DNA from: Apostichopus japonicus
Taxonomy: Eukaryota; Echinodermata; Holothuroidea; Aspidochirotida; Stichopodidae
DNA: 64,000 bases
Direction: 5' to 3'
Assembly (NCBI RefSeq): GCF_037975245.1
Contig: NC_092580.1
Location: forward strand, 8,158,501-8,222,500
The translations under genes were made by a program, and so were the position numbers. Below the pieces are notes generated by a model, which worked only from the letters and a program-made list of their open reading frames with translations, did not search any database and was not told where the DNA came from. Shown in pieces: positions 411 through 63,677 of this stretch (position 1 is its first letter; the number at the start of each line of letters is the position of its first letter).

Positions 411-1724
411 GATAGGCTGCATTATTTCCGAAATATGCTGCTTTTAAAAAATATATAAAGAGGGGAATAATCATAAAAAAATTAGCAGATTTATGGAAGA
501 ATTTTACGTGATGTTACTTGGTGGATACTAAGACCAATGTTATCCTTTACAATAGCACGCTATAGAAATGCACAGTGCGTAACATAACAAGCACGCCTGT
601 ATACCACACGCATGTTTAGTATGCCGAGAATCTTTACAAATATAGGTGGAGTATAACTATTACGAAAGGTCCACTATAGTATTCAAAACTTCCAGAATGT
701 TAATGTTAAGTCAACAAGTTTTTGGTCTGAGGGAGGGTAACAGACAAAAGAATCTATTTTGGTATACTATGCGATAGTTCTTAGTGCATAGCAACACCTA
801 TTATTGTGAAATACAATACCCATTATTGTTAAATACAATACCTATTATTGTTAAATACAATACCTATGATAGTAAAATAAATTCTTTACGTTACTGTGTT
901 AAATGAGATTATTGATAGTTTGTACTCTTTATTCAGGCATGCGTATCAAATCCTTGGCAACAGTCCTTTTTTTATTTTTTATATAGAATATCACTTTTCA
1001 GCACACTGACGAAATTTCATTTCAGAACCATTTTGCCACCGAATTAATAGAAAATTAATACAACTTGAAGATTTCCATCTCTCTTGGTAAGTCGGTTTGT
1101 TCTTTCAGTTTTATTTTCAACAGAAATATGGTAAACAGATTCACCTTCTACACTGACACGCACACGCAGCCTAACTGACATTCTCTCACTACAGAGTCAC
1201 AGCGGAGAGGGAACGACCGCGGTGGGTAATAACGCAAATCGCGATTGCATCTGTACTATGATTACACGTCTAAACATAATAGGCCATTGGAATGGCAAGC
1301 TATAATGTACTGTTCTATGTCTCAAGAGTCATTTGTAAATAAAACACTAGAAAGTCAAATACAAGTGAAAGCATCGTCGCTTAGCGGAGCATCTAGGCAG
1401 CTGGTTTGGAACATATCTGAATATTCAACAATTTCACAACCTCAAAACAGACCTGGAGTAAAAACTATGGAGAGAAATCTATAGCGAATTAAATTATCCG
1501 AATCACGTAAACGGCATGAGAAATGGAATGCCTATACTTTCAAACTGATGCATGCTTAAAATTCAGTAGAATATTTACCTCTCTTCATCAGTAAAATCAA
1601 TAAATAAATAATAATATGCTTCTGAAATTTTCTTTTCAGTATTACTATACCATGCATGTATCAGGATAAAGATGGGATAAGTTTTAAACATAACATATCT
1701 TATTTTATTCTTCGGAATGTAGCA

Positions 1725-2701
1725 ATGGCAACGAAGTGGTTCACCTGCTTGACACGTGTCACACTCATATTGGTCATTCTATTGGCTGATGATGCAAGCG
1801 CCGAAAGTAAGTTTGATTCCTTCAGTGAGGCTCATGAAGCAAACTCTGGTTAAGTGGTTAATAGTGGTAACACGACTTTACAAACCAGGCCACCAACACC
1901 CGCCTCCCCCACACATGCACCTTTCAACCCGTATTGGTTTCCAGGCAGGTCGCTGGTAAATATATATATATATATATATATATATAAATATATAAATAGG
2001 CATATAAATAGGCATATAAATATATATATATATGTATATATATATATATATATATATATATATATATATATATATATATATATATATATATATATATATA
2101 TATATATATAAGGCTATAGTGCTATATCATCAGCAGACAGGGTGTATAGAGATGTGTGTATATATATGATGGCGGGCCGCTGTATATAGGAAGCACTGCA
2201 ATCACACGTTTATGAATTGGAATTATGAATGATGAAATTATTCTTATATAGTGTGCAAGTTTCATGAAGTTTTACTGAATTTCCTTCGATTTCGTATTTA
2301 TTATGCACGTAGTTTTATTTTTACCAGGTCTGTCTCCAGGGGCCATTGCTGGGATCATTATTGGCAGCTTGTGTTTCGTTATTGTCATCGCTATTGTGTT
2401 TGTTGCAATGTGTTTCTGCATGTTACTATTAACGTCAAACGGAGGTGGCTATTATGGGGGGTCGTTCGGAGGCTATAGGGTGAGTCTCATAGCGTTTAAC
2501 GTGTACGCTATACATAGGAGAATAAGAGTACACAATCACCATAAATATAGTCTTAATAAATGAGCTGCTTTCAATATGAAAACAATTATATTCAGGTGAA
2601 GGTAATTTAGTCAATATATCAAAATTGTGAGGCGTTAATTGTTTTCTGATGTTTTTTTTTTAAATATATAGGCTGCTGGTCCATACCCTCTTTACGTGTG
2701 A
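1725..2701 (+). CDS. Small secreted-signal plus single-TM protein, unknown family (left-arm copy, intact)
   Basis: Three coding exons joined in phase: 1725-1806, 2328-2479, 2672-2701, giving 87 aa. Donors GTAAGT and GTGAGT and both AG acceptors are good. Residues 1-26 ([20 protein letters not shown] then ADDASA) look like a cleavable signal peptide. After a very short luminal stretch, [11 protein letters not shown] opens a ~28-residue hydrophobic membrane segment. It is followed by a Gly/Tyr-rich tail ([13 protein letters not shown]) and the last residues AAGPYPLYV. The GAIAGI-type membrane start and Gly/Tyr tail recall CYYR1/Shisa-like proteins, but their cysteine-rich ectodomain is absent and I cannot assign a family. 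An in-frame ATG at 1656 would add 23 residues; I prefer 1725 because it puts the signal peptide at the N-terminus. Intron 1 is mostly TA array. A broken second copy lies at 61202-62388. Confidence 0.6.
1958..2110. repeat. (TA)n microsatellite in intron 1 of the small membrane-protein gene
   Basis: TA repeats with a few AAATAGGCA-type interruptions near 1985-2025. The array is kept at the matching place in the right arm (61798-61900), so it predates the duplication; its length and interruptions differ between arms. Confidence 0.9.
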
Positions 2702-4250
2702 TGATAATATCATCGAATCTAGGTAAGTTTATAACTTCATAACTTCATATAACTCCGTATACAACTCGTCTAAATTTCTTAACGATTCATGTTGCATAAA
2801 TAAATATTGCATAAATATTACAGCAAAAGAAGGCACCTTTAAGTATTAAAATGACAGTACTATTGACTTTCCGAATACAAAAGGATGTGACATGTCACAC
2901 TTCCTGTCACATTACATGTGATTTCTATTTCCCATCATTAAGTGAACGTCCCTCACAAGAATGCATGGAGGTTCTACCATATTCTGATCTGACTTTTACT
3001 TGCAGACTCATCTTACCGAATCAGCTGTTGCAGTTAAATGGTTACTCACGGTAAACATTGGAGATTGAACTGCGTTCACGTTGGCTGATAACTTTAAAAC
3101 AAAAAGAGAAAAGATTGTTACATAATATAAAGGATCGGACAAAGTTACATGTTTGTTGGCTGTAGATAGTTATCTATGACTATGTAAAAGTAAGACATAT
3201 ACACAGTATGCGTTTGTATTAACTCAAAGTAGTTGCTTCAATATGATTGTCAGTTTTGTTTGATTTCATGATTTAGAACATCAAGTACGCCCCCTTTTTT
3301 ATTTGCTCATGGAAAAGTTACTGATCAGTCTGTATATGTCATCAGGTCACGTGCACTTTCCGAATAAGGAAAGGAATGTTTTCTTGTAATGTTTAAGTAT
3401 ACACAACTACCTTCAGAGACCATCATTATATATAATAAGATGCATGTATGCAAAACATACAAAAAACCACTTATTTTATATGCCCTATCATTAATTTAAC
3501 CGTGATTATCATGTTTAATGCAAATTAACCGAGTTTAGTGTTAATTGTTGTGTACAATGCTTTATCCATATTCTGTATACATGAACACATGCAGCTTGTA
3601 TATATTTGATTATCGGAAGTGAAAAAATAACCCTTTGTACTTGAAACCTTCTTCCATATGTAGTGGTGTAATGTTGTGTCTCGCTCTTTTGCAAAGGGGT
3701 AACATTAACCAGATACTCGGTTGGGATACATGTAACCAATCGATCCCGCGTAGTGTAAACTGCACTGAATAAAGACATGAAAGGGACTGTTACCTTAATT
3801 CTTATTGCTAGATAGTTTAAACATGGTTACTAAGTTTCAAACTTGATAAGCATTTACTTCCCCTACCCCCTTCCCGAACATTTCCCTTTACTGGTTTACA
3901 TTCATGTTATTCTTTAACGTGAACGCGTCTTTGTACCTCCGGGATATAACTTTGTCGGATCAGATCTCCCATGATCACTGGTAGGGGAGGGGTTGCCATG
4001 TTTTCTCAAAGTTGAATCGTACAATGATCTTGTCATTATATTAGTATCGCGATAGTGATGGTCCGCAAAGCAGAGCTGTGACCCAAAAGTAGGTAGCAGG
4101 AAAAAAATCCGTGTGGTCACTTCGCGTGATCTTTCCAAACGTCGGACTGATATTTAACTACAGTTCTCGGAGATTGTCAGCGACGAGAATTAGATAAGGT
4201 TTATGTGAGTTGAAGCTAGCTGTAGTGTACGGCTGAGCATCGTTTCTGAG

Positions 4251-61900: not shown

Positions 61901-62104
61901 TATCAGCGACCTGCGTGGAAACCAATACGGGTTGGGTTGAAAGGTGTGTGGGGGAGGCGGGTGGTGGTGACCTGGTTTGTAAAGTCGTCTTACCATTATG
62001 AACCACTTAACCAGAGTTTGCTTCATGAGCCACTGAAGGAATCAAACTTACTTTCGGCGCTTGCATCATCAGCCAATAGAATGACCAATATGAGTGTGAC
62101 ACGT

Positions 62105-62353
62105 AAATATTAAATATGAAAAACATTAAATATAAAAAACATTAAATATAACATTAAATATTAAATATAAAAAAATATAAAAAAATATAAAAAATATAAA
62201 AAATATAAAAAAAAACATTAAATATAAAAAACATTAAATATGAATGTGAGAGACTGACTTCGGTCAGCTTGCGGCTTTGATAAGCCAATTAGGCTTCTTC
62301 GCGAGTTCCTGCTTGCAGGAGGATCTAATATACATACATACATATACATACAT
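62105..62353. mobile_element. 249-bp insertion with TSD ACACGT and a hairpin-rich core
   Basis: The left arm gives the empty site: here ACACGT occurs at 62099-62104 and again at 62354-62359, and the 249 bp between are extra. The left half is (ACATTAAATATAAAA)-like low-complexity DNA. The core (62254-62319) holds CTGACTTCGGTCAG, GGCTTTGATAAGCC with a second GGCTT, and CCTGCTTGCAGG, that is, consecutive perfect hairpins. The right end is a CATA/TACA microsatellite. It looks like a short retroposon, but I cannot assign a family or a tRNA-type promoter. Confidence 0.75.
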
Positions 62354-63677
62354 ACACGTGTCAAGCAGGTGAACCACTTCGTTGCCATAGCTACATTCCG
62401 AAGAATAAAATAAGATATGTTATGTTTAAAACTTATCCCATCTTTATCCTGATACATGCATGGTATAGTAATACTGAAAAGAAAATTTCAGCAGCATATT
62501 ATTATTTATTTATTGATTTTGCTGATGAAGAGAGGTAAATATTCTACTGAGTTTTAAGCATGCATCAGTTTGAAAGTAGGCTGATTCCATTTCTCATGCC
62601 GTTTACGAGATTCGGATAATTTAATTCGCTATAGATTTCTCTCCATAGTTTTTACTCCAGGTCTGTTTTGAGGTTGCGAAATTTTTAAATATTCAGATAA
62701 GTTCCAAACCAGCTGCCTAGATGCTCCGCTAAGCGACGATGCTTTCACTTATATTTGACTTTCTAGTGTTTTATTTACAAATGACTCTTGAGACATAGAA
62801 CAGTACATTATAGCTTGCCATTCCAATGGCCTATTATGTTTAGACGTGTAATCATAGTACAGATGCAATCGCGATTTGCGTTATTTCCCACCGCGGTCGT
62901 TCCCTCTCCGCTGTGACTCTGTAGTGAGAGAATGTCAGTTACTTGTGCGAGTAAGTGTAGGTGAATATGTTTACCATATTGCTGTTGAAAATAAAACTGA
63001 AAGAACAAACACTTACCAAGAGAGATGGAAATCTTCAAGTTGTGTTAATTTTTTATTAATTCGGTGGCAAAATGGTTCTGAAATGAAATTTCGTCAGTGT
63101 GCTGAAAAGTGATATTCTATAAAATAAAAAAAAGGACTGTTGCCAAGGATTTGATACGCATGCCTGAATAAAGAGTACAAACTGTCAATAATCTCATTTA
63201 ACACAGTAACGTAAAGAATTTATTGTATTTAACAATAATAGGTATTGTATTTCACAAAAATAGGTATTGTATTTCACAATAATAGGTGTTGCTATGCACT
63301 AAGAACTATTGCATAGTATACCAAAATAGATTCTTTTGTCTGTTACCCTCCCTCAAACCAAAAACTTGTTGACTTAACATTAACATTCTGGAAGTTTTGA
63401 ATACTATAGTGGACCTTTCGTAATAGTTATACTCCACCTATATTTGTAAAGATTCTCGGCATACTAAACATGCGTGTGGTATACAGGCGTGCTTGTTATG
63501 TTACGCACTGTGCATTTCTATAGCGTGCTATTGTAAAGGATAACATTGGTCTTAGTATCCACCAAGTAACATCACGTAAAATTCTTCCATAAATCTGCTA
63601 ATTTTTTATGATTATCCCCTCTTTATATATTTTAATAGCAGCATATTTCGGAAATACTGCAGCCTATCATTGTGATG

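Follow-up and report, generated by a model that had tools for sequence, protein, structure and literature searches.

Inverted arms around a 55-kb block in the Apostichopus japonicus genome as the probable overlap of a relocated 16.8-kb segment

Introduction

Inverted arms around a block of genes are easily taken for an inversion engine. Arms of this kind are present in a 64,000-nucleotide stretch of the Apostichopus japonicus genome (C20:8158501-8222500, referred to here as the window), where two nearly identical sequences of almost 4 kb enclose a 55.4-kb block. Do the arms flip the block, or were they left by an event of another kind? We show that the right arm is the left end of a 16.8-kb segment, designated S, that was placed inside one pre-existing solo long terminal repeat (LTR), and that the block has undergone no net flip on this chromosome since that time. 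The arms themselves are probably the surviving overlap of S, relocated from the opposite end of the block.

Searches covered one genome of 671,581,487 bases in 35 contigs. Genome-wide searches scored the best candidates only and skipped very common words; for repeat-rich queries the best 40 candidates were scored per search, and the totals from which they were drawn are given with each result. The region examined around the locus was 104 kb (the window plus 20 kb beyond each side). Positions described as extended carry the window numbering on beyond 64000, such that 76451 corresponds to C20:8234951.

Two inverted arms enclose a 55-kb block

The left arm occupies positions 411-4250 on the forward strand (3,840 bp) and the right arm 59692-63670 on the reverse strand (3,979 bp). 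The spacer between them is 55,441 bp (4251-59691), of which base 59691 is a 1-bp junction base. The original prediction had proposed an inverted match over the whole length of the arms at about 96%, and this was borne out, with arm edges that agree with ours to within 1-2 bp. A global alignment of the left arm with the reverse complement of 59692-63670 gave 3,556 matches and 129 mismatches, or 96.5% identity over ungapped columns, from end to end. Self-BLAST of the window recovered the match in two inverted pieces (59692-62104 against 4250-1754, and 62354-63670 against 1759-409); because the E-value was 0 for both, the match is not due to chance. When an AT microsatellite is set aside, the arms differ by 127 substitutions in 3,569 columns (3.6%; Jukes-Cantor distance 0.036) and by 24 insertions or deletions, the largest being a 255-bp insertion in the right arm. 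Within the 671.6-Mb genome, the left arm matched itself and the right arm only, besides hits confined to its AT microsatellite. No matching target duplication was seen at the outer arm edges when the flanks were inspected by eye, and a comparison of the 20-kb flanks outside the two arms found a 35-bp match only.

The right arm begins a segment placed inside a solo LTR

The 600 bases immediately inside the right arm are part of a family with many copies (911 candidates, of which 40 were scored, the query locus included). Thirty-three of the 39 other scored copies start at the second base of the query, i.e., at the arm edge, and three family copies read with their flanks (L023-L025) show that the family extends upstream of this point. 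Its members start with TGTCAC, end with GTGACA and are ~1.48 kb long. L023, the only one of the three in which both ends could be checked, is bounded by GCTAC on both sides, which identifies it as a solo LTR of this length.

At the locus this LTR, designated E, is in two halves. The inner half (59212-59690, reverse strand) is the 3' part and adjoins the sequence GACAG at 59207-59211; the outer half, on the same strand, is the 5' part and runs beyond S from extended position 77610 down to 76452. The halves are collinear and in the same orientation, with ~34 bp missing between them, and together they retain both intact LTR termini (TGTCAC and GTGACA), with GACAG on either side. Two random 5-mers in this region would agree with a probability of 0.0014. 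When both the LTR and S are removed, the target sequence forms a perfect palindrome across the join, its 17-bp arms separated by a single central base; none of 20,000 random joins produced an inverted repeat that had arms of 12 bp or more and extended 6 bp past the join. The right arm thus adjoins an interrupted element with complementary halves and a matching target duplication. From the two halves, the intact ends, the GACAG duplication and the palindrome, we conclude that 59691-76451 (S; 16,761 bp in extended coordinates, with 59691-64000 inside the window), which begins with the right arm, was put into one LTR that was already present.

These features also bear on the possibility of an assembly error in which an allelic copy was wrongly joined into the contig as one of the arms. 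The outer edge of the left arm is an AT microsatellite, and a divergence of 3.6% could fall within the heterozygosity of some marine invertebrates. However, a misjoin would not be expected to put S inside a single LTR with a matching target duplication and a palindromic target, the flanks differ at the inner as well as the outer arm edges, and there is no N in the 104 kb. The LTR, the target duplication, the palindrome and the lack of N largely remove the concern, and we regard such an artefact as very improbable.

S resembles host DNA

To the right of the arm and of a small transposon-like element described below, the remainder of S (S-rest; extended 64049-76451) was divided into three pieces for the genome search. 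Over its first 4,952 bp it matched itself only, plus seven weak matches of 72-125 bp at 70-79% identity. The next 5,000 bp matched itself only, besides a dispersed repeat at 72554-72991 (best 40 of 187 candidates), and the last 2,451 bp, up to position 75119, matched itself plus stretches of 30-40 bp only (best 40 of 3,428 candidates). From 75120 onward, S belongs to a high-copy element, T (again with the best 40 of 3,428 candidates scored). Full copies of T measure ~2,550 bp; S ends within the first ~1,340 bp of T, where it is cut at the LTR junction, and a search of the 104 kb did not recover the rest of T. No donor copy of the whole of S was found: a second copy exists for the arm only, and none for S-rest apart from repeats. 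The T copies L043-L046 carry internal tandem units of ~446 bp and are 92-95% alike to the copy in S over the main match.

S looks like host DNA, not like a transposon. Insertion of S as a transposon was ruled out, as its ends are the arm edge and the inside of T, and target bases were lost, not duplicated. Open reading frames (ORFs) on the minus strand of S at extended 67149-73286 (L011:3149-9286) resemble exons of a larger multi-exon surface protein. None of the S-rest ORFs matched a Pfam family above its cut-off, and the best sub-threshold match (E 0.0008) includes a GT-repeat stretch. One of them ends in a membrane segment that is 45% identical over 38 amino acids to that of a small gene carried by the arms (E 1e-4 in the 104 kb); a long (TG)n-coded stretch adjoins this segment. 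The right-arm copy of the gene and the S-rest ORFs lie on the same strand. The shared strand and membrane segment would fit an arrangement in which the arm and S-rest are native neighbours.

Each arm seems to have lost one flank

The left arm is bordered on its outer side by a second repeat, R, which starts at about -457, occupies positions 1-410 of the window on the forward strand and ends in (AT)66, joined directly to the arm. Window positions 1-278 are high-copy (40 of 1,276 candidates scored, itself included), and two of the three R copies read (L039 and L040) share sequence beyond the AT tract. R therefore seems to be truncated at (AT)66, where the left arm now follows. The inner flank of the left arm (4251-4850) is single-copy and has no visible junction. 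The outer edge of the left arm and the inner edge of the right arm are thus cut repeats, and the other two edges lack a junction; if the flanks there are native, as they appear to be, the left arm seems to have lost its outer flank and the right arm its inner one. A copy or a transfer of S out of the left locus, which we infer to be the donor, would produce this pattern.

Relocation of S and its alternatives

The arrangement would be accounted for by the following history. The ancestral order would have been T, S-rest, arm and block (4251 onward), with E intact at the far end of the block. A stretch of 16.8 kb, from inside T to the inner edge of the arm, would then have been inserted in inverted orientation into E, with the loss of ~34 bp of E. 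Subsequent loss at the donor locus, from the AT tract in R up to the outer edge of the arm, would have left an arm at both ends of the block; this loss is proposed because R is cut and S-rest is single-copy. Decay would have been reciprocal, the left locus keeping an open small gene and the right locus keeping the neighbouring sequence with its own copy of the gene broken. We consider it probable that the arms are the surviving overlap of a segment relocated in this manner.

Nearly the same end product would result from staggered breaks at the arm during a one-step inverted transposition (or two inversions): S-rest and the arm would have moved together, and the arm would have been duplicated by fill-in. 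Each arm has one apparently native flank, on opposite sides, and no second copy of S-rest was found. The arm is present exactly twice, inverted, in the 671.6-Mb genome, as staggered breaks would leave it if it had been single-copy beforehand. Staggered breaks are reported to have duplicated single-copy genic DNA in inverted orientation at the ends of Drosophila rearrangements (PMC5080602, PMC7584159), which is the likeness to the present case. The Drosophila events are simple inversions, whereas here a 16.8-kb segment is inserted in an LTR with an overlap of 3.8 kb; of the overlaps there, those of O7 (59 and about 540 bp; PMC5080602) and O8 (128 and 380 bp; PMC7584159) are shorter. A one-step transposition would also be expected to leave the missing halves of T and R beside the left arm unless they were separately lost, and they were not found within 20 kb. 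Copying followed by deletion would need two events, and transposition with staggered ends would additionally require what is left of T and R to be lost. As the missing parts of T and R were both absent from the 104 kb examined, we slightly favour copying followed by deletion, and we consider the one-step event rather unlikely. A staggered-break inversion of the block alone was ruled out, as the LTR halves are collinear in the same orientation.

Several points weigh against the proposed relocation. The 5-bp target duplication hinges on placing the LTR end at GTGACA; if the boundary is set one base further on, as in the BLAST match, the comparison becomes GACAG against ACAGT. The lack of a second copy of S-rest was judged from the best 40 of 187 and the best 40 of 3,428 candidates. 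One R copy (L041) also diverges after the AT tract, and R may end there in some copies. Neither S-rest nor T nor the remaining part of R was found within 20 kb to the left of the left arm. The ancestral order was reconstructed from one genome, with the flank at 4251 assumed to be native to the left arm. Finally, the likeness between the membrane segments is short and may be of convergent origin.

The rearrangement is of an ordinary kind with an unusually readable history, and inverted duplications that arise from rearrangement are already known in Drosophila and herring. At inversion breakpoints in Atlantic herring, kilobase-sized inverted duplications are 85-99% identical and contain one gene or none, as do the arms described here; unlike the present case, they flank megabase-sized, polymorphic inversions (PMC11499932). 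The solo LTR and its target duplication form a built-in record of which arm arrived, what came along with it and the lack of a net flip. The same test could be applied to other inverted duplications for which no outgroup is available, by asking whether a repeat is interrupted at an arm edge and, if so, whether its halves are collinear. The case resembles a relocation in which duplication is followed by reciprocal loss, seen at a stage when the two loci still overlap by one gene.

A small gene in the arms is open on the left and broken on the right

The left copy of the gene (1725-2701, forward strand) has exons at 1725-1806, 2328-2479 and 2672-2701, introns with GT-AG boundaries and an open frame of 87 amino acids. 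According to a hydropathy analysis, the predicted protein has an N-terminal hydrophobic stretch and a very hydrophobic segment at residues 44-62; these features suggest a small protein that is secreted or membrane-bound. It matched no Pfam family above its cut-off. A search of the genome with the 87-residue protein returned eight matches. Five belong to the arm copies, and the remaining three, located on C9 and C18, have E-values of 0.4 or worse. Dispersal of a gene family was consequently ruled out as the origin of the arms, as strong matches are limited to the two arm copies.

Relative to the left copy, the right copy (61202-62388, reverse strand) contains three lesions. Exon 1 is interrupted by the 255-bp insertion, which is accompanied by a 5-bp target duplication, exon 2 has eight extra G residues, and the second splice donor is changed from GT to GC. 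The last is the weakest of the three because GC donors can be used. All three lesions are confined to the right arm, and the left copy is open. The predicted fold of the 255-bp insertion (62105-62359, reverse strand) is unremarkable (z -1.0). The outer half of E contains a related tRNA-like insert (extended 76504-76771; L012), which is presumably SINE-like (short interspersed nuclear element) from its box A/B-like motifs; part of the 255-bp insertion matches the end of this insert, with 81% identity over 107 bp.

The block has undergone no net flip since S entered the LTR

The original prediction held that the arms can support ectopic recombination that flips the block, and with respect to their length and identity this holds in principle. 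A human set of inversions by nonallelic homologous recombination (NAHR) involves inverted repeats that are >90% identical and range from 654 bp to 24.2 kb (PMC6748972), and in yeast a 24-kb region flips between 4.2-kb repeats that are 97.6% identical (PMC9731477). At 3.84 and 3.98 kb and 96.5% identity, the arms lie within the range given by the human set (inverted repeats >90% identical, of at least about 0.65 kb; PMC6748972).

The LTR provides a record of orientation. Its inner half is in the block, beside the right arm, and is collinear with the outer half beyond S. Because an odd number of flips would move the inner half to the left arm, the block has undergone no net flip on this chromosome since S entered the LTR, and its orientation is that in which it stood when S arrived. 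An even number of flips since then is possible.

The differences between the arms also bear on whether the arms recombine, such that the orientation of the block is polymorphic and sequence is converted between arms, a scheme that is compatible with relocation of S. The differences are unevenly distributed (variance-to-mean ratio 2.84, compared with 0.94 when shuffled). After neighbouring differences were merged, the spread was still uneven when measured by the coefficient of variation of the gaps (p 0.0003-0.014), and more weakly so by the longest gap (p 0.007-0.17). The arms share identical runs of 282 and 251 bp, the longest of which (2152-2433) spans most of exon 2. Among coding columns outside the exon-2 lesion, 1 of 240 differs, compared with 126 of 3,329 elsewhere (Fisher p 0.003); with 95, 80 or 69 merged events assumed for the noncoding differences, p is 0.008-0.04. 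The low coding divergence suggests that both copies were long constrained or were kept alike by conversion, and the unevenness of the spread could stem from conversion or from constraint. Conversion between the arms, as proposed in the original prediction, was not demonstrated by these data: the three gene lesions occur in the right copy only, and constraint may explain part of the pattern, in that exon 2 is largely covered by the longest identical run and differences are fewer in coding columns. With the collinear LTR halves in addition, we consider flipping of the block between the arms, with conversion, unlikely. It is likewise unlikely that this is a recurrent animal flip-flop region in which a block with host genes exists in both orientations and conversion keeps most of exon 2 and the upstream 251-bp stretch identical.

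The yeast case, on Saccharomyces chromosome XIV, offers a close comparison in form. In yeast, too, gene-bearing inverted repeats of ~4 kb (97.6% identical in S288C) surround a multi-gene block of tens of kilobases, with a spacer of 24 kb compared with 55 kb here. There, both orientations exist and the repeats are homogenised, whereas in A. japonicus one gene copy is broken and the LTR indicates no net flip (PMC9731477).

Contents of the block and neighbouring elements

The original prediction had placed leucine dehydrogenase, POC1, CCNQ and RPP14 genes in the block. POC1 could account for two WD40 exons at 31.5-32.6 kb, and CCNQ for a Cyclin_N exon near 39.7-40.1 kb; in both cases the identification extends to the domain and not to the gene. 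The likeness to leucine dehydrogenase, seen by eye only, received no support from Pfam or PDB searches: three ORFs and four stretches had no relevant Pfam match, and the ORF at 5232-5744 had no match in PDB. RPP14 was not confirmed, as a genome search with PF01900 matched C15 only and not the window. Six other ORFs in the block gave nothing relevant in Pfam. ARAGORN (bacterial code) found no tRNA in the window, and no Rfam match to a structured RNA reached the gathering threshold. The idea that the block is a giant DNA transposon bounded by arm termini was ruled out, as the arms occur at two places only, the block contains host WD40 and cyclin exons, and the outer arm edges, judged by eye, lack a matching duplication.

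A long interspersed nuclear element at 41263-44190 contains a long open frame, 975 amino acids between stop codons, that encodes endonuclease and reverse transcriptase domains; the element is possibly a young insertion. Tandem arrays with units of 20-300 bp are located at 9980-10942, 19807-20667, 28652-29424, 35743-36495 and 47478-47787. Just outside the right arm lies a small element of ~370 bp (63678-64048, reverse strand), presumably hAT-like, with the ends CAAGGGCGTAGG and CCTACGCCACTG; 6 of the 8 bp of its target duplication agree (TTGTGATG and TTATGATA). A second copy, at 18991-19358, is flanked by a perfect 8-bp target duplication, CCAGCAGG.

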